Assembly: GCA_030698575.1 (NCBI GenBank)
Contig: JAUYMQ010000599.1
Location: 1 to 19,450 of the forward strand
DNA from: Deltaproteobacteria bacterium
GTDB taxonomy: Bacteria > JAUYMQ01
DNA: 19,450 nucleotides
Direction: 5' to 3'
Below are positions 2,085-19,017 of the stretch, one piece after another. A program made the translations under genes and the position numbers. The notes beneath the pieces were generated by a model, which searched no databases, was not told the DNA's origin, and saw only the letters and a list, made by a program, of their open reading frames with translations. Position 1 is the stretch's first letter. Every line of letters starts with the position of its first letter.

Positions 2085-2630
2085 TCAGGTGTGTTCCTCT
2101 TCGTCTCCTGGATTCTCGCGCTGCTTGCGCCCCATCTCCGCAGGCAGCGAGACCTCGCCGGTCGCCTCGAAGGGAACCGCCTTGCTGCCGAGCCAGGAGC
2201 CCACCTCGAGCGAGGAGCGGAAGTCATAGCTGAGCGCCATGCGGTTCATCCCCCGCTGGATCACTTCCACGAAATTGCCGAACCCCACCTCGACCGGGAT
2301 TGTGATCACCTGCTCGCTCCGCGCGCCTATTTCCCGGGGACCGCCGGAGGGACCCGCGGGGATTTCAACGCCGTTCAGCGAAAGCTGGTAGCGCCACTCG
2401 CGTATCGTAATGCGGAACGGGTTCGGATTGTGAATGCGGACCCTGAGCGAGAGGGTGAGCCCCTTGAGCGATACGTCGGAGACCTCGGCGCCGTCGAAGT
2501 GCAGCGTGGGGCGGTCGAAGAACGGGGCCCCGAGTCGGCCGAGCGGGCCCAGGCGGTCGCAGCCCGAAAGGGCCAGCAGGAGGAGGGCCGCGAGCGGAAT
2601 CAAGACGCGCCGATCAGCGAAGCTTCTCAT
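2085..2630 (-). CDS. LEA14-like (WHy/LEA type 2) lipoprotein
   Basis: The product is 181 residues with a lipoprotein signal: hydrophobic core 9-22 and lipobox LSGC with Cys24 as the predicted lipidated residue. The mature part is a single beta-rich domain with the hallmark NPNPF (68-72) inside LRVRIHNPNPF, followed by YQLSLNGVEI, which matches bacterial LEA type 2/WHy-domain lipoproteins. The last 15 residues are acidic and hydrophilic. Members of this family are exported and have been linked to desiccation or envelope stress, but no reaction is known. It is the last gene of the holB-metG-tatD-suhB string, 30 bases after the phosphatase stop, and a hairpin follows it. The start ATG has only a weak, distant GGGGA. 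Confidence 0.8.
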   Translation of the reverse strand: MRSFADRRVLIPLAALLLLALSGCDRLGPLGRLGAPFFDRPTLHFDGAEVSDVSLKGLTLSLRVRIHNPNPFRITIREWRYQLSLNGVEIPAGPSGGPREIGARSEQVITIPVEVGFGNFVEVIQRGMNRMALSYDFRSSLEVGSWLGSKAVPFEATGEVSLPAEMGRKQRENPGDEEEHT

Positions 2631-2660: not shown

Positions 2661-3482
2661 TCAATCGGCGGGCCGGCCACTGCGCGCACGTGTCCGCCGG
2701 ATGATCTCCAGCATCGCGCCCTGGATCTTGCCGTTCGAGGCGACGATCAGGCGGCCGTCGATCTCGTTCGGGCGCCCCTCGAAGTCGGTGACCACGCCTC
2801 CGGCCTCGCGCACAATGAGTCCGCCGGCGGCCACGTCCCAGGGAGAGAGCTGCATCTCCCAGAAACCGTCGAAGCGCCCCATCGCCGTGTAGCAGAGGTT
2901 CAGTTCGGCGCTGCCGTCCCGGCGTACCGCCTGCGCCTCCATCATGAAGGCTTCGAAGTAGTCGAGGTTGTTGTCGGGATTCTCGCGGATGTCGTAGGCG
3001 AACCCGGTGGCGAGGAGCGAGTGGAGGACGTCCGTCCGGGCGCTCACGCGGATGGGACGGCCGTTCAACGTGGCGCCGCCGCCCAGCACAGCCACGAATT
3101 CCTCGTCGAGCACCGGGTCGAGAACCACGCCGAGCAGCACCCGCCCGGATTGCTCGAGCGCGATGGCGACGCAGAAGCGCGGGTAGCCGTGGGCGTAATT
3201 CGTCGTTCCGTCGAGCGGGTCTACAATCCAGCGGTACTCAGAATCCGATTCCCTGGAATAGCCTTCCTCGGCGAGGATTCGGTGATCGGGAAAAGCGGCA
3301 TGCAGGTGATCGACCACGGCGCGCTCGCAACGGTGATCGACCTCGGTGACGAGATTGATGTCCCCCTTCCGGCTCACTTCGATGGACGCGCCGTAGGAGT
3401 CGAGCTGGATCCGGCCGGCGAGGCGCGCGGCGGCTCGGGCCTCGCTGACAAAGCGCGCGAACTGCCGCTGATCGGCGCCCAC
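2661..3482 (-). CDS. suhB: Inositol monophosphatase family protein (SuhB-like)
   Basis: The product is 273 residues, normal for the family. The metal-site motifs are all present: AEEGYS (71-76, Glu72/Glu73), WIVDPLDGTTN (85-95, Asp88, Asp91, Thr93) and PWDVAAGGLIVREAGG (214-229, Asp216). These bind Mg2+ and position the phosphate ester. Family substrates include myo-inositol-1-phosphate, fructose-1,6-bisphosphate, PAP and histidinol phosphate, and sequence alone does not decide between them. The GTG start at 3482 directly abuts the TAG stop of the TatD-rSAM gene (TAGGTG), so translation is probably coupled. In E. coli SuhB also acts in rRNA transcription antitermination; whether that applies here is unknown. 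Confidence 0.9.
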   Translation of the reverse strand: MGADQRQFARFVSEARAAARLAGRIQLDSYGASIEVSRKGDINLVTEVDHRCERAVVDHLHAAFPDHRILAEEGYSRESDSEYRWIVDPLDGTTNYAHGYPRFCVAIALEQSGRVLLGVVLDPVLDEEFVAVLGGGATLNGRPIRVSARTDVLHSLLATGFAYDIRENPDNNLDYFEAFMMEAQAVRRDGSAELNLCYTAMGRFDGFWEMQLSPWDVAAGGLIVREAGGVVTDFEGRPNEIDGRLIVASNGKIQGAMLEIIRRTRARSGRPAD

Positions 3483-4874
3483 CTAGCCGACCTCGTCGAG
3501 GGGACGAAAGCGGAAGCGCACGCCGAGTTCTTCCTCGGCGATGCGGCGGCAGGCCTCGACGTCGACACCGGGCAGCCCCACGGCAGTCGCCTGCACGTCG
3601 GGGATATGCGCCCGCGCCAGGCGGATGAACTCCTTCACCTTCGGGTACGCCTCGGTCTTGTAGCGCGAGGGGCAGTAACGCGCGTAGGTCTCGGCGTCCT
3701 GCGCGTTGAGCGAGACCGAAACTGAATCGACGAGCCCCTCCAGCTCGGGGGTGATGTCCCTTCCGTGGACGAGGCTGCCGAGCCCGTCCGTGTTGAGCCG
3801 TACCTTGTGGCCACGCGCCTTGAGCCCGAGGGCGATCGCCTTCAGCTCTTCGAGCTTGAGCGTCGGCTCGCCGTAGCCGCAGAAGACCACCTCATCCGGC
3901 CGCGCTTCGGCCGTGGCCTGGTCGACCTCGGCGAGTACCACGTCGGGGTCGGGCCCCTTGGCGCCGATCTTCAGGAAGTACCCCTTCACCATGAAGTCCT
4001 CGAACTTGGGGCAGAAGGTGCAGGCGAGCGTGCAGCGGTTCGTCAGATTGACGTAGAGGCTGTTGCGAATGCGGTAGGTGATGCGCGGCTCGAGCGTTGG
4101 ATCGAGGCCGAAGAGCCTGCGCGCGTTGAGCGAGGTGATGCGCGCCACGTCCTCGAAGCTGAGCTTCTTCAACTCGGCGATCTTCTGCGCCACCAGCGAC
4201 ACGAAGGCCGGCTCGTTGCGCTTGCCCCGGTGGGGCGCGGGCGTGAGATAAGGGCAGTCGGTTTCGATGACGAGCTTCTCGATCGGCACCTTCTCCACAA
4301 TTTCACGGAGGTCGGCGGCGTTCCGGAAGGTCACGACACCGGAAATCGAAAGGTAGAGCCCGAGATCCAGGCAGCTCCGCGCCATGTCGTAGTCGCCGGA
4401 GAAGCAGTGCATGACGCCGCCGGGATACTCGTTTCGCATCTCGCGCAGGATCGCGACCGTGTCATCCTTGGCCTCCCGGCTGTGCACCACCACGGGCTTT
4501 CCGAGTTCACCGCCAAGCGCGAGGAACTCCCGAAACCTCGCCTGCTGCTCCTCCCTGGGCGAGTGCATGTAGTGGTAGTCGAGGCCGATTTCACCCACCC
4601 CAACGACTTTCGGGTCCTCCGACAAGTCCCGGTACTCCGGATTGGCCTCGAGCGACCACTCCTTGGCCTCGTGCGGATGCACGCCGATGGTGGCGAAGAC
4701 GCGCTCGTTGTCGCGGGCGAGCGCAAGCGCCCGGCGCGCGCCTTCGGGACCCTCGCCGGAGCCCACCACGACCATCCAGTCGAGGCCGGCCTCCCAGGCG
4801 CGCGAGAGCACCTCGCTGCGATCCTGGTCGAAGCGTGCGACGTCCACGTGGCTATGTGTATCGACGAGCGGCAT
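3483..4874 (-). CDS. TatD-family metal-dependent hydrolase fused to a radical SAM domain
   Basis: This 463-residue protein has two parts. Residues 1-258 are a complete TatD nuclease-type TIM barrel with metal ligands His7/His9 (THSHVD), Glu95 (GEIGLDYHY), His131 (VVHSRE), His156 (HCFSG) and Asp206 (ETDCPYLTP). Residues about 265-463 are a short radical SAM domain with Cys281-x3-Cys285-x2-Cys288 (CTLACTFC), the GYGEPTL SAM-binding loop and NTDGLGS. TatD proteins are DNases or D-amino-acyl-type hydrolases; the small radical SAM partner matches the family described as TatD-associated radical SAM, of unknown substrate. I place the start at ATG 4874, where TatD homology begins. An ATG at 4910 would overlap metG by 11 bases and add 12 unrelated residues; neither has a good ribosome site. 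It sits between metG (26-base gap) and suhB (no gap). Confidence 0.9.
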   Translation of the reverse strand: MPLVDTHSHVDVARFDQDRSEVLSRAWEAGLDWMVVVGSGEGPEGARRALALARDNERVFATIGVHPHEAKEWSLEANPEYRDLSEDPKVVGVGEIGLDYHYMHSPREEQQARFREFLALGGELGKPVVVHSREAKDDTVAILREMRNEYPGGVMHCFSGDYDMARSCLDLGLYLSISGVVTFRNAADLREIVEKVPIEKLVIETDCPYLTPAPHRGKRNEPAFVSLVAQKIAELKKLSFEDVARITSLNARRLFGLDPTLEPRITYRIRNSLYVNLTNRCTLACTFCPKFEDFMVKGYFLKIGAKGPDPDVVLAEVDQATAEARPDEVVFCGYGEPTLKLEELKAIALGLKARGHKVRLNTDGLGSLVHGRDITPELEGLVDSVSVSLNAQDAETYARYCPSRYKTEAYPKVKEFIRLARAHIPDVQATAVGLPGVDVEACRRIAEEELGVRFRFRPLDEVG

Positions 4875-4899: not shown

Positions 4900-6480
4900 T
4901 TACTTGGCATCCACGGGAGGAAGGATCTCGAGGCGCGGGAACAGCGGGTCGCCCTTGGTCACGCGCCCCTGCTCGGGAAACTTGAAGAAGTCGAGATCGG
5001 AATCGATCCGCTGCGCGTCCACCGAGCCGGGAAGCCCGAGCTGCGACCAGATGCTGGCGGCGGCGCCGGGCATGACGGGTTGAATGAGGATGGCCAGGAT
5101 CCGCAGCGTCTCTGCGCAGACATAGAGGATGTCGGCCACCTCGTCCGCGCGCGCGGGATCCTTCGCGATCTGGAAAGGCTTGCGTGCCGCGATGAAGCTG
5201 TCGAGGGCCGCGACGATGCGCCAGGCCTGCTCCAATGCGCGGCTCGGCAGCATCTCGTCCATCCCCCGCCTGTAGCCCTCGAGCGCGTCCCCCATATGGC
5301 TGTTGTTGATGAACGACTCCGACGCCTCGCGCACGGTCGGGGTCTTGCGTACGATCCCCACCTGGTACCGCACGATCATCGCCGTCGTGCGCGCGAGAAG
5401 ATTGCCGATCCCGTTCGCGAGATCGGCGTTGCAGCGGTCCTGCACGCGCTCCCAGGTGAAGTCGCCGTCGCGGTCGAAGGGGACCTCCGCCATGAGGAAG
5501 TAGCGCAGCGCATCGACGCCGACCTTCTCCGCGACCTCGACGGGGTCGAGCACCGTCCCGAGAGTCTTCGACATCTTGGCGCCCTGGAGGTTCACGAAGC
5601 CGTGGGCGTGGACCTTGAGGGGCGGCTCGAGGCCCGCGCTCCAGAGCAGTGCCGGCCAGATGATGCAGTGAAAGCGGGTGATATCCTTGCCGATCACATG
5701 CACGTCGGCGGGCCAGGTTTTCCTGAATCGCTCCTCATCCGTCCCGTAACCGGCTCCGGTGATGTAGTTGATGAGCGCGTCCACCCAGACATAGGCGACG
5801 GACCAATCGTCAAAGGGGAGGGGGATCCCCCATTTTACGCCCGCCCTCGAGATCGAAACGTCCTGCAGGCCGCCCCGGATCACATTCAGGATCTCGTTGC
5901 GGCGCATCTCCGGCTGAATGAAGCCGGGGTTCTTCTTCGTGATGTACTCGATCAGTTGGTCCTGGAACTTCGACAGCTTGAAGAACCAGTTCTGCTCGCG
6001 GATCCACTCGGGCTTGGTGCCGTGCGTCGGGCAGTTACCGCCTGCCAGGTCTTTTTCCTGGTAGAAGGCTTCGCAGGAAACGCAGTACCACCCTTCGTAG
6101 TGACCCTTGTAGATGTCGCCCTTGCCGTTGTCGTATATCGCCTGGAGGAACTTCCTGACGGCGTTCTTGTGAACCTCGTCGGTGGTTCGGATGAAGCGGT
6201 CGTAGGAGATTTCCAGCCGGCGCCATGTCGCCTCGAAGCGCTCCGCCATCTCGTCGCAGTAGGCCTGGGGGTCTTTCCCCAGTTCCCGCGCACGCTTCTC
6301 GACGTTCAGTGAGTGCTCGTCATTTCCCATGAGGAAATAGACGTCGTCGCCGCGCAGCCGGCGGTAGCGCGCGATCACGTCGGCGCCGATCTTCTCGTAG
6401 GCCGTGCCGAGGTGGGGCGTGGAGTTCGCGTAGTCGATCGCGGTGGTGATGAAGAACTTTTTTCCGCTGCCTGTGGGCAT
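4900..6480 (-). CDS. metG: Methionyl-tRNA synthetase, short form
   Basis: It charges tRNA-Met with methionine in the cytoplasm. The class I signatures are HLGTAY (residues 23-28, HIGH box) and KMSKT (302-306). The connective insert has a single zinc knuckle with Cys133, Cys136, Cys150 and His153 (YCVSC...NCPTH). At 526 residues it lacks the C-terminal EMAP/tRNA-binding domain of longer MetG proteins and ends soon after the anticodon-binding helices. The holB stop and an ATG at 6486 share ATGA, but GGGAGG lies only one base before that ATG and seven bases before the next in-frame ATG at 6480, so I prefer 6480. It follows holB and precedes tatD-rSAM in one operon. Confidence 0.95.
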   Translation of the reverse strand: MPTGSGKKFFITTAIDYANSTPHLGTAYEKIGADVIARYRRLRGDDVYFLMGNDEHSLNVEKRARELGKDPQAYCDEMAERFEATWRRLEISYDRFIRTTDEVHKNAVRKFLQAIYDNGKGDIYKGHYEGWYCVSCEAFYQEKDLAGGNCPTHGTKPEWIREQNWFFKLSKFQDQLIEYITKKNPGFIQPEMRRNEILNVIRGGLQDVSISRAGVKWGIPLPFDDWSVAYVWVDALINYITGAGYGTDEERFRKTWPADVHVIGKDITRFHCIIWPALLWSAGLEPPLKVHAHGFVNLQGAKMSKTLGTVLDPVEVAEKVGVDALRYFLMAEVPFDRDGDFTWERVQDRCNADLANGIGNLLARTTAMIVRYQVGIVRKTPTVREASESFINNSHMGDALEGYRRGMDEMLPSRALEQAWRIVAALDSFIAARKPFQIAKDPARADEVADILYVCAETLRILAILIQPVMPGAAASIWSQLGLPGSVDAQRIDSDLDFFKFPEQGRVTKGDPLFPRLEILPPVDAK

Positions 6481-6482
6481 GG

Positions 6483-7532
6483 TCATGCCTCCCGGCGCGC
6501 GACAGCGCCGCCGGCGTTACGCCCCGGCCGGCCCTCGGGGCCCGCGAGATCGGCGAAGAGCCCCTGCAGGGCGAGGGCCGGCGTCACGTTCCGCCGGATG
6601 TCCTGCTGGGCTCGCAGGATGCGCGTGAAGGCGCGGGCTGCGCGGTCTGCGGCGCCGGGGACTCTCGCTTCGTCTTGCATCGCCCTGACTCGATCGCGGT
6701 GCGCGAGATCGGACTCGAGCCCGCCCGAGGCCAGCACCATCACGTCATGCGCCTTGAGCAGGAGGAGATCAAGAACCGCGAGCGCCCGGGCTCGTCCTTC
6801 CTCGGTGCCCCGCACTCCCTCGGCCCAGGCAAGCGCCGGCCCAAGAACGCCCGATTGGGCCGCGCCCTCAACCTCGAAGAGCGCGTCGCGATCAGGGAGC
6901 GCTCCGGCCTTACCGAGCGCCAGCGCACGCCCGAGGCTGCCGCGGGCGATTCCGGCGAGAAGATCCACCTGCTTCGGATCGATGTCCGCTCGCGCGGCCA
7001 GCGCTCTCCGGAGCGGCGCGTCCGGGATGGGGCCGAAGCCGACGCTCTGGCATCGCGAGAGAATTGTGCCGACGAGCGCGCTCGGGCGCGCGGTGACGAG
7101 AATGAACACGGTGCCCGCACCCGGCTCCTCGAGCGTTTTCAGGAACGCGTGCTGGGCGTCGAACGAAAGCGCGTCGGCCGGATCGACGATGGCGACCCGC
7201 TGGCGGCCGCCGTGGGAAGCAAGCTGGAGCTCCGCCTCGATGGCGTGAAAACGATCGATCGGAATGCGACTCTTTCCCTCGGGGATCTCGAGCACGTGCA
7301 GATCGGGATGGGTGCCAGCGCCGAAGCGAACACAGGATGCGCAACTACCACAGGCCTCCTCGCCGGCGGGATCATCGCAGAGAAGGGCCGCCGCGAAGGC
7401 GTCGGCGGCGCGTCGCTTGCCCACACCCCCGGGCCCCTGGAAGAGATAGGCGTGCGCCACCCGCCCCGCGCGTGTGGCGCGCCGAAGGATCTCGAGGGGC
7501 CGCTCTTGCCCAAGGATGTCGGAGAACCGCAT
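6483..7532 (-). CDS. holB: DNA polymerase III delta-prime subunit (clamp loader)
   Basis: The protein is 349 residues. The AAA+ N-terminus starts FSDILGQERPLEIL and has an intact P-loop GPGGVGKR (33-40), a zinc-binding set Cys52/Cys61/Cys64/Cys67 (CGSCASC), the DAQHAFLKTLEEP box (125-137) and SRC (159-161), all typical of delta-prime/DnaX-like clamp-loader subunits. It helps load the beta sliding clamp at replication forks. An intact P-loop is not found in every delta-prime, so ATP binding is possible here. The ATG at 7532 is preceded by GAGG seven bases upstream. It is the first gene of the operon that runs on through metG; the next gene upstream is divergent. Confidence 0.92.
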   Translation of the reverse strand: MRFSDILGQERPLEILRRATRAGRVAHAYLFQGPGGVGKRRAADAFAAALLCDDPAGEEACGSCASCVRFGAGTHPDLHVLEIPEGKSRIPIDRFHAIEAELQLASHGGRQRVAIVDPADALSFDAQHAFLKTLEEPGAGTVFILVTARPSALVGTILSRCQSVGFGPIPDAPLRRALAARADIDPKQVDLLAGIARGSLGRALALGKAGALPDRDALFEVEGAAQSGVLGPALAWAEGVRGTEEGRARALAVLDLLLLKAHDVMVLASGGLESDLAHRDRVRAMQDEARVPGAADRAARAFTRILRAQQDIRRNVTPALALQGLFADLAGPEGRPGRNAGGAVARREA

Positions 7533-9367: not shown

Positions 9368-11920
9368 TCAGCTGCAGTTCGAGAATCCGCAGTCGAAGCA
9401 GGTGGGCTCCTTGCAGCCGCTCACGAACTCGACGTTCGTGGAGTAGCACTGCGGGCAAGTCGCCGAGATGCTCGCGTCGCGAGCCGGCGCGGCGGCGGGC
9501 TTGGCGCTCGCCGAGGCGCCGTTCCCGTTGGCCTTCATGTGGCCGTGCTTGATCAGGTGATCGCGCAGGATCTGGCTGAGCGCGTAGGGGATCGACTCGA
9601 CCCGCTTGGGGCCGAACCCGATGGGGCGATCGCCCTTGACCGAGTTCAGGTGCTTCAGGATGCGCTCGGCTTTTCCGCCGGTCTCGAGATACTTCGAGAG
9701 AAGGATGCCGATGACCGCGGTGAGCCCGGCGATCTCGGTTCCGAGCGGCGGGATGTTGGCGAACACCCGGAAGGGCCCGCGCTCGTCGTAGATGATGTTG
9801 ACGTGCAGCGGCCCGTAGCCCGTCTCCTTCTCGTAGTATTCACTCGTGACGCCGTGTTCAGCCGAGGGACGCCGGGACGGTAGAGGCGCGGGCGCTTCAT
9901 CCGCCGCCTTCTTGCCGATGTTGAGCACTTGCTGGGTCTTCGATCCGTCCCGGTAGACGGTGAGCCCCTTCACGCCGAGGTCGTAGGCGAGGAGATAGCC
10001 CCGTGCGATCTCCTCCTTGGTGGTTTCCTGCGCGCAGTTGATGGTCTTCGAGACCGCGTTGTCCGTATGGTTCTGGAAGGCGGCCTGGACCGCGATGTGG
10101 TGCTCGAAGGATACGTCGTGGGCCGTGGAAAAAATGTCCTGCACGTGCTTGGGGATCTCGGGGATGCCCCTGACCGCCTTGTGGTTCTCGTCGATCTTCT
10201 TCCACAGCTCCGATTCTTCCAGGCCGAAGTAGTCGTTCGCCTCGGCCACCGCCTTGAAATGCGGGTTGACCTCCCAAAACGTGTCTTCCTCGGCGGGTGT
10301 CTGGCCCTTCTTCAGGGCATCTATGCCGCGGGCGTTGTAGCGCGTGTAGGCGACGGCGAAGAACGGCTCGATGCCCGAGCCCTGAAGGCCGGCGGCGATG
10401 GCGATGGTGCCCGTGGGTGCGATGGTGGTCCGTGCGCAGTTGCGCGGAAGAACGTGCTGGCCGCGGAAGTGCTTGCCCTCGGGATCGTAGATGGAGTTCT
10501 TCCAGTTCGGGAAGACCCCGCGGCTGGCGGCGAGTTCGACGCTTGCATCCAGGGCCGACTCGTTGATGAAGCCCATAACCTCCTCGGCTTTCTCGATGGC
10601 CCGCTCTGAATCGTAGGGAATGTCGAGCGCCACAAGCGTCTCGGCCCAGCCCATTACGCCCAGGCCGATCCTCCGGTTACCCTTCGCCATGAGCTCGATC
10701 TCGGGGACCGGGTAGTCGTTCAGTTCGATGACGTTGTCGAGAAAGTGAACGCAGCTGAAGACCGTCTCGCGCAGACGCGTCCAGTCGATGCTCGATCCGC
10801 CGTTGTAGCCGGTGACGAACTTGCTGAGGTTGATCGAGCCGAGATTGCATGGCTCGTTCGGCAGCAGCGGCTGCTCGCCGCAGGGGTTCGTCGCCTCGAT
10901 CTCGCCCAGTTGGGGCGTGGGATTCGAACCGGAGGCGTTGATGCGGTCGAGGACCACGTAGCCAGGGTCACCGCATTCCCAGGCGCACTCGGCCATGAGG
11001 TCGAACAGCTCCCGCGACGGCAGGCGCTTGACGACTTCGCCGGTGCGCGGGTTCCTGAGCTCGATATCCTCCCCCTTCTTGACGGAGTCCATGAAGGCCG
11101 CGTCGATCCCGACAGAGATGTTGAAGTTCTCGAGGACGGTGTTGTTGCGCGCGCGCTTCATCGTGATGAAGTCGATGATGTCGGGATGCCAGTAGGGGAG
11201 GATGGCCATGTTGGCGCCGCGCCGCGTGCCGCCCTGCTTCACCTGCTCGGTGGCGGCGTCGAAGATTTTCATGAAGCTCAGCGGACCCGAGGCGATGCCC
11301 TTGGTGCTCAGGACGGCGTCCTCGGCGGGGCGGATGCGGCCAAAGGAGAATCCGGTGCCGCCCCCGCTCTTGTGGATGAGCGCCTGGTTCTTCACGGCGC
11401 CGAAGATTCCCTCGATGGAGTCGGGAACGGGAAGCACGTAGCAGGCTGAAAGCTGCTGCAGCTCCCGGCCGGCGTTCATGAGCGTCGGGGAGTTCGGCAG
11501 GAACTCGAAGCGCGCCATCAGCCGGTAGAACTTCAACTCCGTCTCGCGGACGACGTCGGCCGCGGCGGGATCCTCGGATGCCACCCTGTAAAGGTTGGTC
11601 ATCAGCTTCTTGAAGTTCGACACACGCTCCCGGTAACCGTGCATCTCGTGGTGGATGAGGAGCATCTCGACGGTCTCGCCGCCGCCGGCCTCTTTCCTGT
11701 CGATGTGATGGCTCACCCCTTCGAGGATCGCCGGCCGGAACCGCGCATCGTGAAGCAGCTCGCCAAGCGCGATGTTGCGCGCCACGTTCAGAAGCCAGGC
11801 CTCGGGTGATTTCGCATCTTTCAGGTACTTGTCGTTGATGACCTTGCGCTGGTTTTCCGTGAGCTGGAGGCTTTCAACCGACCCGGAAGTGTCGACATGC
11901 GTGGTTCCCATGGGCTCCAT
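9368..11920 (-). CDS. nrdJ: B12-dependent (class II) ribonucleoside-diphosphate reductase
   Basis: It reduces ribonucleotides to deoxyribonucleotides using adenosylcobalamin, independent of oxygen. The 850-residue protein has the reductase barrel with Cys160 (LSACYVLP), the active loop NPCGEQ (345-350: Asn345, Cys347, Glu349), ARTTIAPTGTIA in the C-terminal half of the barrel, a TSCPD domain (about 693-785) and a Cys-rich tail (Cys822, 825, 836, 841, 844, 849) that should hold metal and/or shuttle electrons. An Ala/Lys-rich linker precedes the tail. I prefer ATG 11920, five bases after AAAGG; a GTG at 11971 would add 17 poorly conserved residues. It is a single-gene unit with its own terminator and a regulated promoter at 12180-12248. 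Confidence 0.95.
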   Translation of the reverse strand: MEPMGTTHVDTSGSVESLQLTENQRKVINDKYLKDAKSPEAWLLNVARNIALGELLHDARFRPAILEGVSHHIDRKEAGGGETVEMLLIHHEMHGYRERVSNFKKLMTNLYRVASEDPAAADVVRETELKFYRLMARFEFLPNSPTLMNAGRELQQLSACYVLPVPDSIEGIFGAVKNQALIHKSGGGTGFSFGRIRPAEDAVLSTKGIASGPLSFMKIFDAATEQVKQGGTRRGANMAILPYWHPDIIDFITMKRARNNTVLENFNISVGIDAAFMDSVKKGEDIELRNPRTGEVVKRLPSRELFDLMAECAWECGDPGYVVLDRINASGSNPTPQLGEIEATNPCGEQPLLPNEPCNLGSINLSKFVTGYNGGSSIDWTRLRETVFSCVHFLDNVIELNDYPVPEIELMAKGNRRIGLGVMGWAETLVALDIPYDSERAIEKAEEVMGFINESALDASVELAASRGVFPNWKNSIYDPEGKHFRGQHVLPRNCARTTIAPTGTIAIAAGLQGSGIEPFFAVAYTRYNARGIDALKKGQTPAEEDTFWEVNPHFKAVAEANDYFGLEESELWKKIDENHKAVRGIPEIPKHVQDIFSTAHDVSFEHHIAVQAAFQNHTDNAVSKTINCAQETTKEEIARGYLLAYDLGVKGLTVYRDGSKTQQVLNIGKKAADEAPAPLPSRRPSAEHGVTSEYYEKETGYGPLHVNIIYDERGPFRVFANIPPLGTEIAGLTAVIGILLSKYLETGGKAERILKHLNSVKGDRPIGFGPKRVESIPYALSQILRDHLIKHGHMKANGNGASASAKPAAAPARDASISATCPQCYSTNVEFVSGCKEPTCFDCGFSNCS

Positions 11921-12214
11921 GATGACCTTTCCCCCCTGAACGTTGGCGGTTCCGTTTCCTGCCCGGGTCACGCTCCCCCCGCGGGATACGCGGCCTCTCC
12001 GCAGCCTAACTGCGCCCTGTGATCAGCCGCCCACGACCGTTCCCAGGGGGCGCCGGCAGGACTCGCCGGCACGGCTGAGCCCCGCAATAAGGGGAAAAGC
12101 CACCCCCGCCACGGCAGCTCGAGGCGCGCGTGGCTTGATCCGTCAGCATCGATAGGGAACGGGTCGGAAGGGGCTGTGACCCTTATATCTTGTAGGGGCG
12201 CCAGCCAGTACTCA
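11921..12214 (-). other. Long structured 5' leader of nrdJ
   Basis: If transcription starts near 12214, the nrdJ mRNA has about 290 untranslated bases. No open frame with a ribosome site is convincing here. It can fold: a hairpin GGCU-uuu-CCCC-(uuauugc)-GGGG-cuc-AGCC at 12101-12073 and a GCCGGC/GCCGGC hairpin at 12070-12052. I do not find the conserved B12-box pattern of a cobalamin riboswitch. Function is unknown. Confidence 0.45.
12180..12195. promoter_or_regulatory. NrdR-box-like site, downstream copy
   Basis: CCCTTATATCTTGTAG matches 10 of 16 positions of the NrdR palindrome ACACWAWATATWGTGT, including the central A-T-A-T and TTGT half. It shares ATCTTGTAG with the second site exactly 32 bp away. 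Paired boxes about three helical turns apart are the usual NrdR arrangement. It lies just downstream of the predicted nrdJ start. Confidence 0.55.
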
Positions 12215-13369: not shown

Positions 13370-14038
13370 ATGAAGATCAAGGTGAAATTCTTCGCATCGC
13401 TCCGGGAGCGGGTGGGCGTTTCGGAGGCCGATCTCGAATGCCCGGACGGGACCTCCGTGGCGGGCCTGCGAGCCCGGCTCGCGGAGCGATACCGGCAGCC
13501 CGAGGCTTTCGCATCGACGCTCCTGGTTTCGGTGAACTGGGATCCGGCCGGAGAGGATCTCCTGCTGGCTGAGGGCGACGAGGTCGCGTTCCTCCCACCC
13601 ATGTCGGGGGGCGTGAATGGGGAGGGCGCCTTCTGGCTCTCCGAAACGCCGATCGACGCCGCGATGGTGGAAGAGAAGGTGCGGTGGGCCGGCTCCGGCG
13701 GAGTAGTCACCTTCCTCGGCGCCGTCCGCGCCGAATCGCGAGGCAAGAAGATAAGGCGCCTCGAGTACGAGGCGTACGGCGGCATGGCCGAGAAGAAGAT
13801 GCGGGAGATTGGCGAAGAGATGGCGCGTCGCTGGCCCGGCGTCCGCGTGGCCATCGCGCACCGCATCGGGGCGCTCGACGTCGGGGAGTTGGCTGTGGCG
13901 ATCGCGGTCGCGGCGCCGCACCGGGCCGAGGCCTTCGAAGCCTGTCGTTACGCCATCGACCGCCTGAAGGAAGTGGTTCCGATCTGGAAGAAAGAGATCG
14001 CCGAAGATGGCGCCTACTGGGTCGAGCCCCATGCCTGA
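13370..14038 (+). CDS. moaDE: MoaD-MoaE fusion (molybdopterin synthase, both subunits)
   Basis: Molybdopterin synthase puts two sulfurs on cPMP to make molybdopterin. Residues 1-81 are the ubiquitin-like MoaD (MKIKVKFFASLRERVG ... FLPPMSGG) ending in Gly80-Gly81. Residues 82-222 are MoaE, with VVTFLGAVR (112-120), PHRAEAFEACR (183-193) and the catalytic lysines Lys200 and Lys207 in DRLKEVVPIWKKE. The Gly-Gly that must carry the thiocarboxylate is internal, so activity needs either cleavage after Gly81 or another solution; the mycobacterial MoaX fusion is known to be cleaved at the equivalent place. It overlaps moaB by eight bases. The start is fixed by MoaD homology; no ribosome site is visible. 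Confidence 0.93.
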   Translation: MKIKVKFFASLRERVGVSEADLECPDGTSVAGLRARLAERYRQPEAFASTLLVSVNWDPAGEDLLLAEGDEVAFLPPMSGGVNGEGAFWLSETPIDAAMVEEKVRWAGSGGVVTFLGAVRAESRGKKIRRLEYEAYGGMAEKKMREIGEEMARRWPGVRVAIAHRIGALDVGELAVAIAVAAPHRAEAFEACRYAIDRLKEVVPIWKKEIAEDGAYWVEPHA

Positions 14039-14564
14039 TGAGCCGCGCAAGGCCCACGACCATCACCGCGAGACGTCTCCCCGCGACGCGCGCTGCTTCG
14101 TCCTGACGGTGAGCGACACGCGGGATCCCGATACCGATCGCTCGGGCCGGCTCATCGGGGAACTTGTGGAGGGGGCAGGGCTGCGCCTCTCGGGCGCGGA
14201 AATCGTTCCCGATGAACCGGCGCGCATTCGCGCCTCGATTGAAGCGAGGCTGGCCGATCCCGCGACCGACGTCATTCTCGTCACCGGTGGAACCGGAGTC
14301 GCCCCGCGGGACCGGACGGTGGAGGTCGTGCGGGAGCTTCTGGAACGCGAGCTTCCGGGCTTCGGGGAGATCTTCAGAATGCTGAGCTTTCGAGAGATAG
14401 GCGCCGCCGCCATGCTGTCACGGGCGCTGGCAGGCGTGGCGCGCGGGAAGGCCGTTTTTGCGCTCCCGGGCTCCGCCGACGCCGTGAAGCTCGCCATGAA
14501 CCAGATTATTCTGCCCGAAATCGGACACCTGCTTCGGGAACTCCGCAAGCAGGGGTCCGGCTAG
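14031..14564 (+). CDS. moaB: MoaB/Mog-type molybdopterin adenylyltransferase family protein
   Basis: The 177-residue protein is a single MoCF-biosynthesis domain: FVLTVSDTRDPDTDRSG, then the molybdopterin-binding VTGGTGVAPRDRTVE and the MoaB-type EIFRMLSFREIGAAAMLSRALAGV and VFALPGS...ILPEIGHLL. The family adenylylates molybdopterin before metal insertion; E. coli MoaB is dispensable while Mog works, so which step this one performs is inferred. I place the start at ATG 14031, inside the moaDE stop region (eight-base overlap); an ATG at 14007 would add eight residues. Translational coupling to moaDE is likely. The N-terminal 20 residues are His/Arg-rich and not part of the domain. Confidence 0.9.
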   Translation: MPDEPRKAHDHHRETSPRDARCFVLTVSDTRDPDTDRSGRLIGELVEGAGLRLSGAEIVPDEPARIRASIEARLADPATDVILVTGGTGVAPRDRTVEVVRELLERELPGFGEIFRMLSFREIGAAAMLSRALAGVARGKAVFALPGSADAVKLAMNQIILPEIGHLLRELRKQGSG

Positions 14565-15074: not shown

Positions 15075-16727
15075 TCAGCGCCCGCCGCGGCGTCCCGTCG
15101 CGTGTCCGCGTCCGGCCAGCCTGCCGTTACTCCGCCCCTTTCCACGCGTGCGCGGCTTGCGCCGCCGGGGCGCGTCGTCGTCATCATCATCGGCCTTGTC
15201 GTGGACGAGCGGCGCCCAGTTGAGAAGCGTGTGCGCCAGCAGCCGCACGCCCACGCCCGTGGCGCCTCGAGGCGCGTAGGGCTTCTTCTTCATGGTCCAG
15301 GCCGTGCCTGCGATGTCCAGGTGAACCCAGGGCGTCTTGCCGACGAACTTCTGGAGGAAGCTCGCGCCGGCAATCGTCCCGGCCTCGCCCGCATTCCCGA
15401 TGTTCTTGATGTCGGCCACCTCGCTCTTGACGGCGTCGGCGTACTCCTCGAACATCGGCAGCTCCCAGACGCGCTCGTAGGTAGCCTCGCCGCTGGCCTT
15501 GATCCGGTCGGCAAGCGCCGCGTTGTTGGTCATGAGGCCGCTTGCGTGGGAGCCGAGGGCGACGACGCAGGCCCCGGTGAGGGTGGCCATGTCGACGATG
15601 GCGTCTGGTTTGAAGCTCAGGGCGTGGTGAAGGCCGTCTGCGAGGACGATTCTCCCCTCGGCGTCGGTATTGAGGACTTCGATGGTCACACCCGCGGCCG
15701 AAGTGAGGATGTCGCCGGGCTTGTAGGCGTTTCCGCCGGGCAGATTCTCTGCCGACGGAACGATGCAGACCACGTTGACGTCGGGTTTCAGGAGGGCCAT
15801 GGCGCGGGCCAGGGCGATGGTGGCCGCTCCTCCGCTCATGTCGAATTTCATCTCGTCCATCTTTCCGGGCGGTTTGAGCGAGATGCCTCCCGAGTCGAAG
15901 GTGATCCCCTTGCCCACCACGCAGACCGTCTGGGCCCCCTTCGTATTGCACCGGTACTCGAGCACGATGAGCCGCGGTTCGTTGCGGCTGCCGCGCGCGA
16001 CTCCGAGCAGCGCTCCCATCTTGGCCCGCGCTAGCTCGCGCGGCCCCCAGATGGTGCACCGGAGCCCCACCTCCCGCGCCATCTTCCTGGCTTCATCGGC
16101 GAGGTATTTCGGGGGGTGATCGGAGCCCGATCGGTTGGCCAGATCGCGGGCGAATACGACGCTGTCGGAGAGCGCGCTCCCCACGCGGGCCCCCTCTCGA
16201 ATCTCCCGGACCTTTGCGGCATCGTTATCGACGATCGTGAGCTGGGTGATCGGCTTGCTGTCGCTCTTTTTTCCGGACTTGTAGAGGGAGAATGCGTAGC
16301 CGCCGAGCCGGGTTCCCTCGACGATCGCCTGGGCGGCCTCGGCCGCGGAGATGTCCTCATCGCCCCCGCCGTCTTCGCCCACGCCGTGGAGCACGCTCAC
16401 CACGTGGGTCACCCCGAGACTCCGGGCCGCCTGGGCTGCGGTGCCCGCTGCCTGTCGCACCCGGTCGAGGATGAAGCGATTCTTCTTCCCGAGGCCGACG
16501 ACGAGCACTCTGCGGGCTTTCACTCCCCGGGTGGGGCGGAGGAGCAGCGTTTCGTTGGGCTTTCCCTTGAAATCCCCGTCCTTCAGGTAGGCCGAAAGCT
16601 GGCCCCGGGTGGCCTTGTCGATCGCGGCCGCGGCCCCGCCGGGCTTTGTCGTTCCCTCGAATAGATTGACGACCAGGAGGTCTGCGGGAGTCTTGGCGGC
16701 GTCGCCGACTTTTAGCGTTACTTTCAT
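15075..16727 (-). CDS. pepA: Leucyl aminopeptidase (M17), with unusual charged C-terminal tail
   Basis: A cytosolic, usually hexameric, two-metal aminopeptidase. The N-terminal Macro-like domain covers about 1-165. The catalytic domain has VVGKGITFDSGGISLKPP (Lys273, Asp278, Lys285), Asp296 and the family signature NTDAEGR (353-359, Asp355, Glu357). Homology ends near residue 507 (LLNWAPLVHD). Then comes a tail with six Asp (513-518) and about 32 residues rich in Arg, Lys and Gly, ending GRRGGR; this is not a normal part of M17 enzymes. E. coli PepA also binds DNA, in a different region. The ATG at 16727 has GGAGGG 12 bases upstream. It is divergent from tolQ and has its own promoter. Confidence 0.95.
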   Translation of the reverse strand: MKVTLKVGDAAKTPADLLVVNLFEGTTKPGGAAAAIDKATRGQLSAYLKDGDFKGKPNETLLLRPTRGVKARRVLVVGLGKKNRFILDRVRQAAGTAAQAARSLGVTHVVSVLHGVGEDGGGDEDISAAEAAQAIVEGTRLGGYAFSLYKSGKKSDSKPITQLTIVDNDAAKVREIREGARVGSALSDSVVFARDLANRSGSDHPPKYLADEARKMAREVGLRCTIWGPRELARAKMGALLGVARGSRNEPRLIVLEYRCNTKGAQTVCVVGKGITFDSGGISLKPPGKMDEMKFDMSGGAATIALARAMALLKPDVNVVCIVPSAENLPGGNAYKPGDILTSAAGVTIEVLNTDAEGRIVLADGLHHALSFKPDAIVDMATLTGACVVALGSHASGLMTNNAALADRIKASGEATYERVWELPMFEEYADAVKSEVADIKNIGNAGEAGTIAGASFLQKFVGKTPWVHLDIAGTAWTMKKKPYAPRGATGVGVRLLAHTLLNWAPLVHDKADDDDDDAPRRRKPRTRGKGRSNGRLAGRGHATGRRGGR

Positions 16728-16996: not shown

Positions 16997-17038
16997 GCAG
17001 GGTCTCCCCCAGAGCCACGGGAATTGGGATTTCATCAC

Positions 17039-17791
17039 ATGCCAGGCACTTTCCTTGCGGGCGCCGCTGCCGCGGGTCCGACCTTCCAGGGCGGCATACT
17101 CGACCTCATCTGGAACTCCGGCCCCGTCGTCAAGCTGGTTCTCATCATACTTTTCGGCTTCTCCTTCATCTCATGGGGAATCATTTTCTATAAGGCGCGC
17201 GTCATCAAGCGCGCGTTGGAGGAATCGACCGAGTTCCTCGAGATCTTCTGGGAGCGCCGGACGCTGGATCTCATCTACGAGGAGGCCAAGGGCCTCAGCG
17301 GGAGCCCGCTTTCGAACATCTTCCGCGCGGGCTTCATCGAACTGGTAAAGCTCAAGCGAGGCCGCAACGCGGGTGCAATTCCGCGTGTCGATCCGCGGGG
17401 GGCCGTCACTGTCGAGGCCGACCTCGACGAGGTCCTGAAGAAGATCCGCTGGACGAGCGCGGCGGAGATTAACCACCTCGAGCGGTACATCTCATTCCTG
17501 GCCACGACCGGTTCCACTGCTCCTTTCATCGGACTGTTCGGAACGGTGTGGGGGATCATGGATGCGTTCCGGCACATCGGCGTCAAGGGAGCTGCCAGCA
17601 TCGCAGTTGTCGCGCCGGGCATTTCCGAGGCGCTTGTCGCCACCGCCATCGGCCTGTTCGCCGCCATTCCCGCCGTGGTCGCGTACAACTACTTCGTCAG
17701 CAAAATCAGAGTCATCGTGAAGGAAATCGAGGGCTTCACGGACGATTACATGGCTGACCTGCGCAAGGCCTTCGAGAAGGAACTGGGATGA
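17039..17791 (+). CDS. tolQ: TolQ proton-channel subunit (MotA/TolQ/ExbB family)
   Basis: The inner-membrane protein is 250 residues. It has one membrane helix near 25-49, a cytoplasmic stretch of about 100 residues, then two helices near 151-174 (ATTGSTAPFIGLFGTVWGIM) and 188-218 (APGISEALVATAIGLFAAIPAVVAYN), the family signatures. With TolR it uses the proton motive force to energise TolA. I prefer ATG 17039; a TTG at 17024 would add five residues. The ribosome site is weak (GGGA about 15 bases away). It overlaps tolR by four bases (ATGA), and tolA and tolB follow, which separates it from an ExbB role. Confidence 0.92.
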   Translation: MPGTFLAGAAAAGPTFQGGILDLIWNSGPVVKLVLIILFGFSFISWGIIFYKARVIKRALEESTEFLEIFWERRTLDLIYEEAKGLSGSPLSNIFRAGFIELVKLKRGRNAGAIPRVDPRGAVTVEADLDEVLKKIRWTSAAEINHLERYISFLATTGSTAPFIGLFGTVWGIMDAFRHIGVKGAASIAVVAPGISEALVATAIGLFAAIPAVVAYNYFVSKIRVIVKEIEGFTDDYMADLRKAFEKELG

Positions 17792-18192
17792 AGGTCGGAA
17801 AAGAGTCGGAGAGCCTCTCCGAAATCAACGTCACGCCCTTCGTCGATGTGATGCTGGTGCTGCTCATCATCTTCATGGTGACGACGCCGCTCATCCAGGC
17901 CGGCGTCGATGTGAATCTCCCGGAGGCCACCGCGGAAGGGCTCCGGGCTCCGGAGGATCCCACCATCATCAGCGTCAACAAGGATGGCCAGATATTCTTC
18001 GGAAAGGACAAGGAAGTTCCCTTTGACAAGCTGCAGAGCTTCGTCGCGGCCCTCAAGGAGAACAAGGGACTCGAGGAGATCTATCTCAAGGCGGACAAGG
18101 ACGTCTCGTACGGCATCGTGGTCAGGGTAATGGCCGAGGTAAAAGCCGCAGGAATTGATCGGCTTGGGATGATCACGCTTCCCGAGACATGA
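17788..18192 (+). CDS. tolR: TolR (ExbD/TolR family)
   Basis: The protein is 134 residues: a short cytoplasmic N-terminus with SEINVTPFVDVMLVLLIIFMV, one membrane helix containing the conserved Asp20 that takes part in proton transfer, and a periplasmic domain ending GIDRLGMITLPET. It pairs with TolQ as the stator of the Tol motor. The start overlaps the tolQ stop as ATGA, and tolA begins three bases after its stop. Confidence 0.95.
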   Translation: MKVGKESESLSEINVTPFVDVMLVLLIIFMVTTPLIQAGVDVNLPEATAEGLRAPEDPTIISVNKDGQIFFGKDKEVPFDKLQSFVAALKENKGLEEIYLKADKDVSYGIVVRVMAEVKAAGIDRLGMITLPET

Positions 18193-18195
18193 GCC

Positions 18196-19017
18196 ATGGC
18201 CTCGTTCACCTTCGAAAATCTGTTCGGCGGGGAGATCGATCCCAAGCTGAAGCGCATGGTGGCGGTCTCCGCCTTCATGCACCTGACTCTCTTTGCTCTT
18301 ATTCTGATCATGGCACGCAACGCGCCGCTGCCGGTGAACTACCAGGCGAGCATCCAGGTCGCGCTGGTCGATCTCCCGGAGGTCAACGACCTGGAGCAGG
18401 TCAAGCTCGGCGCTCCGAAGCCCAAGCAGTTGCCTCCCCCCGAAGCGAAGAAGCCGGAGCCGAAGGCCGCGGAGAAGGCCAAGCCCGCCGAGCCAAAGAA
18501 AAAGATCGTCGCCCTCGAGGAAGCGAAGAAGACCGAGCAGAAGGCGGCGGACACCAAGGCGAAGAAAGAGCCGGTCCCCGCCGCCAGGATGGACAGCGCC
18601 GTCAACCGGCTCCGCGTTCAGAACACGGCCATCGCGCGGATCCGGCAGCGCGCCCTCGACACGGCCATGCCCGAGGGGACGGCCGGCGGAAACGTCCGCG
18701 GGATCGGCGCCCTGAAGGGGCTTGCCTATGACGCCCTCGTGAGGGGGCACTTGGAATACAACTGGGAACTGCCGCCGACCTTCCTGGGGCAGCACCTGAA
18801 CACCCAAGTCTACATGAAGATCGATCGGGACGGCCGCTTGATTGAATGGAAGATCGTCAGGGGATCGGGCAACTCGGTTTACGACGATACGGTGTACAGG
18901 GCCTTCCGGAAGATTGAACTGGGGCAGGGCTTTCCCCGGCCCGAGCCCGAGATTTACGACTCGATGCTGAAGGAAGGCTACGTCATCGATATGAAAGCCG
19001 AGGATTTCTTCTCTTGA
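18196..19017 (+). CDS. tolA: TolA-type energy transducer (TonB/TolA C-terminal domain)
   Basis: The protein is 273 residues: one membrane anchor (about 20-41, MVAVSAFMHLTLFALILIMA), a Pro-rich then Lys/Glu/Ala-rich periplasmic linker (about 70-128), and a C-terminal TonB/TolA domain with VYMKIDRDGRLIEWKIVRGSG and FRKIE (about 175-260). It should reach across the periplasm to TolB/Pal and the outer membrane. The linker is far shorter than the E. coli TolA helix. Position between tolR and tolB favours TolA over TonB, although the C-terminal domain alone cannot decide. Confidence 0.88.
   Translation: MASFTFENLFGGEIDPKLKRMVAVSAFMHLTLFALILIMARNAPLPVNYQASIQVALVDLPEVNDLEQVKLGAPKPKQLPPPEAKKPEPKAAEKAKPAEPKKKIVALEEAKKTEQKAADTKAKKEPVPAARMDSAVNRLRVQNTAIARIRQRALDTAMPEGTAGGNVRGIGALKGLAYDALVRGHLEYNWELPPTFLGQHLNTQVYMKIDRDGRLIEWKIVRGSGNSVYDDTVYRAFRKIELGQGFPRPEPEIYDSMLKEGYVIDMKAEDFFS

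Follow-up and report, generated by a model that had tools for sequence, protein, structure and literature searches.

The window, by which we mean the whole stretch of 19,450 nucleotides analysed here, carries on its minus strand a single frame of 463 amino acids plus stop (3483-4874), in which open reading frame analysis and profile searches place a TatD domain followed by a radical SAM domain. The start is the ATG at 4874, and a further in-frame ATG, at 4910, lies inside the 3' end of metG. The gene order agrees with that of the preliminary description, namely holB, metG, the fused gene, and suhB, and the features of the locus are as follows.

6486-7532, minus strand: holB, DNA polymerase III delta prime (TIGR00678, 180.4 bits against a cut-off of 180.6, and Pfam DNA_pol3_delta2)
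4903-6486, minus strand: metG, methionine--tRNA ligase, the upstream neighbour (profile search)
3483-4874, minus strand: fused TatD-radical SAM gene (open reading frame, profile matches, full-length homologues)
4107-4868, minus strand: TatD domain, YcfH-like, HxH group II, residues 3-256 (TIGR00010, 283.9 bits)
4848-4856, minus strand: H7-S-H9, the TatD group II metal-binding motif (aligned homologues; group definition from PMC10085689)
4590-4592, minus strand: TatD ligand E95 (aligned homologues)
4482-4484, minus strand: TatD ligand H131 (aligned homologues)
4407-4409, minus strand: TatD ligand H156 (aligned homologues)
4257-4259, minus strand: TatD ligand D206 (aligned homologues)
4140-4151, minus strand: D242-V-A-R245 in the last TatD helix, one half of a fusion-specific signature (fused against unfused alignment)
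3498-4082, minus strand: radical SAM domain, residues 265-459 (TIGR04038, 239.8 bits, cut-off 129.7)
4059-4067, minus strand: R270-N-S272 at the start of the radical SAM domain, the other half of the signature (fused against unfused alignment)
4011-4034, minus strand: C281xxxC285xxC288, predicted ligands of the SAM-binding 4Fe-4S cluster (invariant in 59 of 59 aligned fusions; many aligned loci were picked by this motif, so cysteine conservation is not independent there)
3864-3881, minus strand: C332-G-Y-G-E-P337, a GxGEP motif in its RlmN form with a near-invariant extra Cys (alignment)
3486-3491, minus strand: C-terminal V462-G463, the protein ending exactly at Gly (comparison of fusion C-termini)
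2664-3482, minus strand: suhB-like inositol monophosphatase family gene, beginning right after the fused gene (profile search)
2088-2630, minus strand: probable lipoprotein with an LEA_2 domain, downstream (Pfam match)

Both domains score above their profile cut-offs (TIGR00010 and TIGR04038), and the protein also matches Pfam TatD_DNase (E 2.7e-84) and Radical_SAM (E 2.4e-15, 57.6 bits), with the TIGR04038 match spanning profile positions 2-191 of 192 and reaching 242.5 bits in the genome search. The TatD half has the HxH motif by which group II is defined (PMC10085689), together with the E, H, H, and D ligands, all of which are essentially invariant among 93 aligned fusions, and CxxxCxxC is kept in the TIGR04038 frames inspected. 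Searched as a single sequence, the protein retrieves only TatD structures from the PDB. By fold, the nearest solved structures to the TatD domain are 1j6o and 6l25 (VIA Z about 41, 41-46% identity). It thus shares with the TatD/YcfH family (S. aureus 6l25, T. maritima 1j6o, E. coli YcfH 1yix) the fold (Z 37-41), the metal ligands, and the HxH motif, and differs from that family in its extra C-terminal radical SAM domain and in D242/R245 of the last helix. That helix ends at residue 255 and the first radical SAM strand begins at 267, leaving a gap of 12 residues. Because it ends 183 residues after the first cluster cysteine and a second set of cysteines, sought in its sequence, is absent, the protein has neither a SPASM nor a twitch domain. 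The preliminary description had claimed a single frame of this length with all the TatD ligands, an intact CxxxCxxC core, a short joint near residue 260, and no auxiliary-cluster domain, and in each of these points it is borne out. Both domains are intact with their catalytic residues in place, and their activities are predicted from these residues. Of 40 further genomes sampled across the domain, 8 encode full-length homologues (40-53% identity) and another has one truncated at a contig edge, and the fusion architecture is therefore real and widespread rather than a chimera.

The radical SAM half belongs to a family that, as the preliminary description stated, is already known and is catalogued, with its association in its name (TIGR04038, tatD_link_rSAM, "TatD family nuclease-associated radical SAM protein") and no function assigned; our search of the open literature found no paper on it. 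With its whole radical SAM domain above the cut-off, its fused architecture, and a -VG end of the usual kind, the protein is a typical member, and nothing tested sets it apart. Sampling 386 bacterial genomes across the domain turned up the family in 92, or about a quarter, mostly fused to TatD; M. acetivorans served as an archaeal control, and the counts here are for bacterial copies. Frames of about 450 amino acids or more were counted as fusions (about 76, in roughly a fifth of the genomes) and the 16 copies in frames of 200-323 amino acids as unfused, one copy cut by a contig end (G032) being placed in neither set. Seven of the unfused copies lie adjacent to tatD, so the two domains do co-occur outside the fusion, and nine have no tatD nearby; contig ends truncate some of these 16 loci. 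Named genomes were scanned as well and yielded 80 TIGR04038 loci, nearly all fused, mainly in Desulfuromonadales, Geobacter, Nitrospirota, Nitrospinota, and other deltaproteobacteria. A phylogeny built from 117 radical SAM domains requires seven changes among the fused, adjacent, and standalone states, of which the well-supported branches force at least two to three per label. In the genome from which the window comes, the fused gene is the only TatD found.

The comparison of fused and split pairs that had been proposed thus supports the view that the two domains belong together, as do residues specific to the fusion on both sides of the joint. D242 and R245 are each found in 91 of 93 fused proteins and in 3 of 24 unfused TatD proteins, while R270 (90/93) and S272 (87/93) are found in 3 of 18 unfused radical SAM proteins; both sides of the signature are lost in two loci (L010 and L016). 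L151, a standalone copy that clusters with a fused one in the tree, retains both IRNS, which includes R270-N-S272, and a final -VG, as would be expected if it had split off recently. The AF2 model of the whole fusion is confident (pLDDT 95.3, pTM 0.90) and consistent with a fixed arrangement of the domains, and together with the signature it suggests rigid docking, with D242/R245 and R270 as the putative contact, although D242/R245 might reflect lineage inheritance instead of an interface. These residues and the nearly fixed length of the joint among fusions also bear on a somewhat unlikely alternative, in which the radical SAM half modifies a substrate that TatD never touches, such as a protein residue, a peptide, or a small metabolite, and fusion merely ties its expression or stability to TatD. 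A defined arrangement is favoured by them over a loose tether, whereas the nine of 16 unfused copies that have no tatD nearby speak for separate substrates.

The surroundings of the gene were also compared. Among 61 related loci with enough upstream sequence, metG precedes the fused gene in 28 and holB in 27. Across the neighbourhoods compared, a further gene recurs between holB and metG (32 loci) and looks from its sequence like a PSP1/YaaT-type gene. The linkage to suhB is not conserved (1 of 61), a search of about 96 neighbourhoods found no conserved downstream gene, and no neighbour points to DNA repair. Since unfused tatD has metG within 1.5 kb (9 of 20 loci) about as often as fused tatD does (5 of 9), the holB-metG context is TatD's own and says nothing of the radical SAM substrate, and the earlier suggestion that operon packing with these genes is a substrate clue was rejected. 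The same result weighs on a reading that we regard as doubtful, in which the radical SAM half modifies an RNA base in the manner of RlmN and TatD either trims or hydrolyses the 3' end of the RNA or an aminoacyl adduct: the metG neighbourhood would suit it, but metG adjoins TatD with or without the fusion. This reading also draws on a standalone copy in Thiorhodospira sibirica (L099:4965-6536) that is followed directly by MnmL/YtqA, a radical SAM gene of tRNA modification, and on another MnmL match about 4.8 kb from a standalone copy in Sedimenticola, but the link amounts to these two loci.

The neighbours of unfused radical SAM copies otherwise vary by locus, which counts against the separate-substrate alternative. 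In a few clades they include further radical SAM genes, and adjacency to genes of the AmmeMemoRadiSam or MnmL type is a point in favour of that alternative. At four loci (L153, L154, L157, and L158) the unfused gene adjoins an AmmeMemoRadiSam-like radical SAM gene, possibly as a functional pair, with a cytidylate kinase gene between the two in L153. A genome-level association with AmmeMemoRadiSam radical SAM proteins (79/92 against 189/294 genomes, p 5e-5 with kinship ignored) was left unused, the adjacency being confined to few clades. Three unfused copies (L148, L150, and L156) have GYGDS or GYGDC in place of GxGEP.

MoaA and RlmN are nucleotide or RNA enzymes, acting on purine nucleotides or RNA, and it is these that head the solved structures found with a profile of the radical SAM domain (MoaA at 3.9e-6, RlmN at 2.9e-5). 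RlmN shares the GxGEPLL motif, a further point for the RNA reading, and MoaA (GTP 3',8-cyclase) ends in GG where the fused protein ends in Gly, although the latter lacks the C-terminal auxiliary-cluster domain of MoaA. The protein stays far below the family cut-offs of both, with 16.1 and 17.8 bits against 284 and 325 for the MoaA profiles TIGR02666 and TIGR02668, and 15.2 bits against 290 for RlmN (TIGR00048). Its sister family is TIGR04100 (rSAM_pair_X), of the same length (152.8 bits, under the cut-off of 262), after which the next NCBIfam family is the tungsten-cofactor oxidoreductase maturase TIGR04317 (36 bits). A model of the radical SAM domain by itself, which has CxxxCxxC and the partial barrel, matches many solved radical SAM enzymes, among them NifB (Z 17.3), PFL activase (16.1), viperin (15.7), RlmN (15.1), TYW1 (15.0), and MoaA (14.4). 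As NifB and MoaA are separated by only about 3 Z units, the fold does not choose a substrate, and it is the profile signal that leans to nucleotide and RNA enzymes. The position of NifB and PFL activase at the head of the fold list, as well as that of TIGR04317 after the sister family, sits well with a substrate unrelated to TatD. The similar small barrel (PFL activase, VIA Z 16.1) also raises the very improbable reading of an activase of a glycyl-radical enzyme, like NrdG or PFL activase. Co-occurrence was examined for NrdD, which is found in 37 of the 92 genomes with TIGR04038 and 109 of the 294 others (p 0.62), and for want of this association an NrdD activase was rejected; the genome of the window has no NrdD match and has class II NrdJ.

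The end of the protein offers a second regularity. Among the 106 fusions that have a real stop, 101 finish on Gly, almost always as -[VIL]G, whereas metG, holB, and unfused tatD from the same loci have scattered ends with no such rule; the terminal Gly is missing from all split adjacent copies and some standalone ones. MoaA from fusion-bearing genomes ends in -[IV]GG in 8 of 9 cases read, the ninth match being incomplete, against the single Gly of -VG here. Hover and Yokoyama are said to have reported in 2015 that the C-terminal GG tail of MoaA gates radical initiation, and that tail works with the auxiliary cluster. The glycine tail of the fusions resembles it and by this parallel may have a gating role. 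In the models it comes after the last barrel strand, with a pLDDT of about 40 in the fused protein and 78 in the domain-only model. The joint signature and this near-invariant glycine are new details of an already catalogued family.

The reading that we tentatively prefer, while judging it short of probable, is that the protein is a rigid, bifunctional two-domain enzyme acting on nucleotides or nucleic acid. Its TatD part would be a two-metal phosphodiesterase of the YcfH type, whose homologues are 3'-5' exonucleases and AP-endonucleases, and the radical SAM half a single-cluster, MoaA/RlmN-like enzyme abstracting hydrogen from a nucleoside or base, with the glycine tail reaching into the active site and, as in MoaA, gating radical formation. 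In such an enzyme one half would expose a lesion or modified nucleotide to the other, for instance when a damaged 3' end is repaired or removed. This bifunctional reading is supported by the retained catalytic residues, the seven split adjacent loci and the several changes between fused and split states in the tree, the joint signature and confident model, the MoaA/RlmN profile matches, and the terminal Gly of 101 of 106 fusions. Support also comes from E. coli TatD, YcfH, and YjjV, which have AP-endonuclease and 3' exonuclease activity and the loss of all three of which sensitises the cell to H2O2 (PMC10085689). It is weakened by the close Z scores across folds, by the nine copies without tatD nearby, and by the lack of a DNA-repair neighbour, as well as by the absence of the terminal Gly from all split adjacent copies and some standalone ones and by the cooperation of the MoaA tail with an auxiliary cluster that is absent here. 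The tail function, the nucleic-acid substrate, and the coupled catalysis are all three things that we infer, and a fully specified version, in which a docked, MoaA-like, glycine-gated single-cluster radical SAM domain and TatD work successively on a single lesion in a nucleotide or nucleic acid, seems to us unlikely as a whole; if true, it would be a previously undescribed radical-based step of repair or editing. Should the halves share a substrate, this would help to explain the job in these bacteria of TatD, an almost universal nuclease whose role is uncertain, and the joint signature and terminal glycine make a joint role testable by simple mutants.

Several other features of the window deserve mention. 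A protein of 222 amino acids encoded on the plus strand (13370-14038) joins MoaD (ThiS) and MoaE, and a MoaB/MogA-like gene (14007-14564) overlaps the end of that fusion gene. An adenosylcobalamin-dependent ribonucleotide reductase, NrdJ, with a TSCPD domain is encoded at 9368-11971 on the minus strand. The leucyl aminopeptidase PepA has an unusual C-terminal tail (15075-15190, minus strand), with a run of Asp and then an Arg/Gly/Lys-rich stretch past the catalytic domain, and genes of the TolQ/ExbB, ExbD/TolR, and TonB_2 types stand in a row at 17024-19017 on the plus strand.
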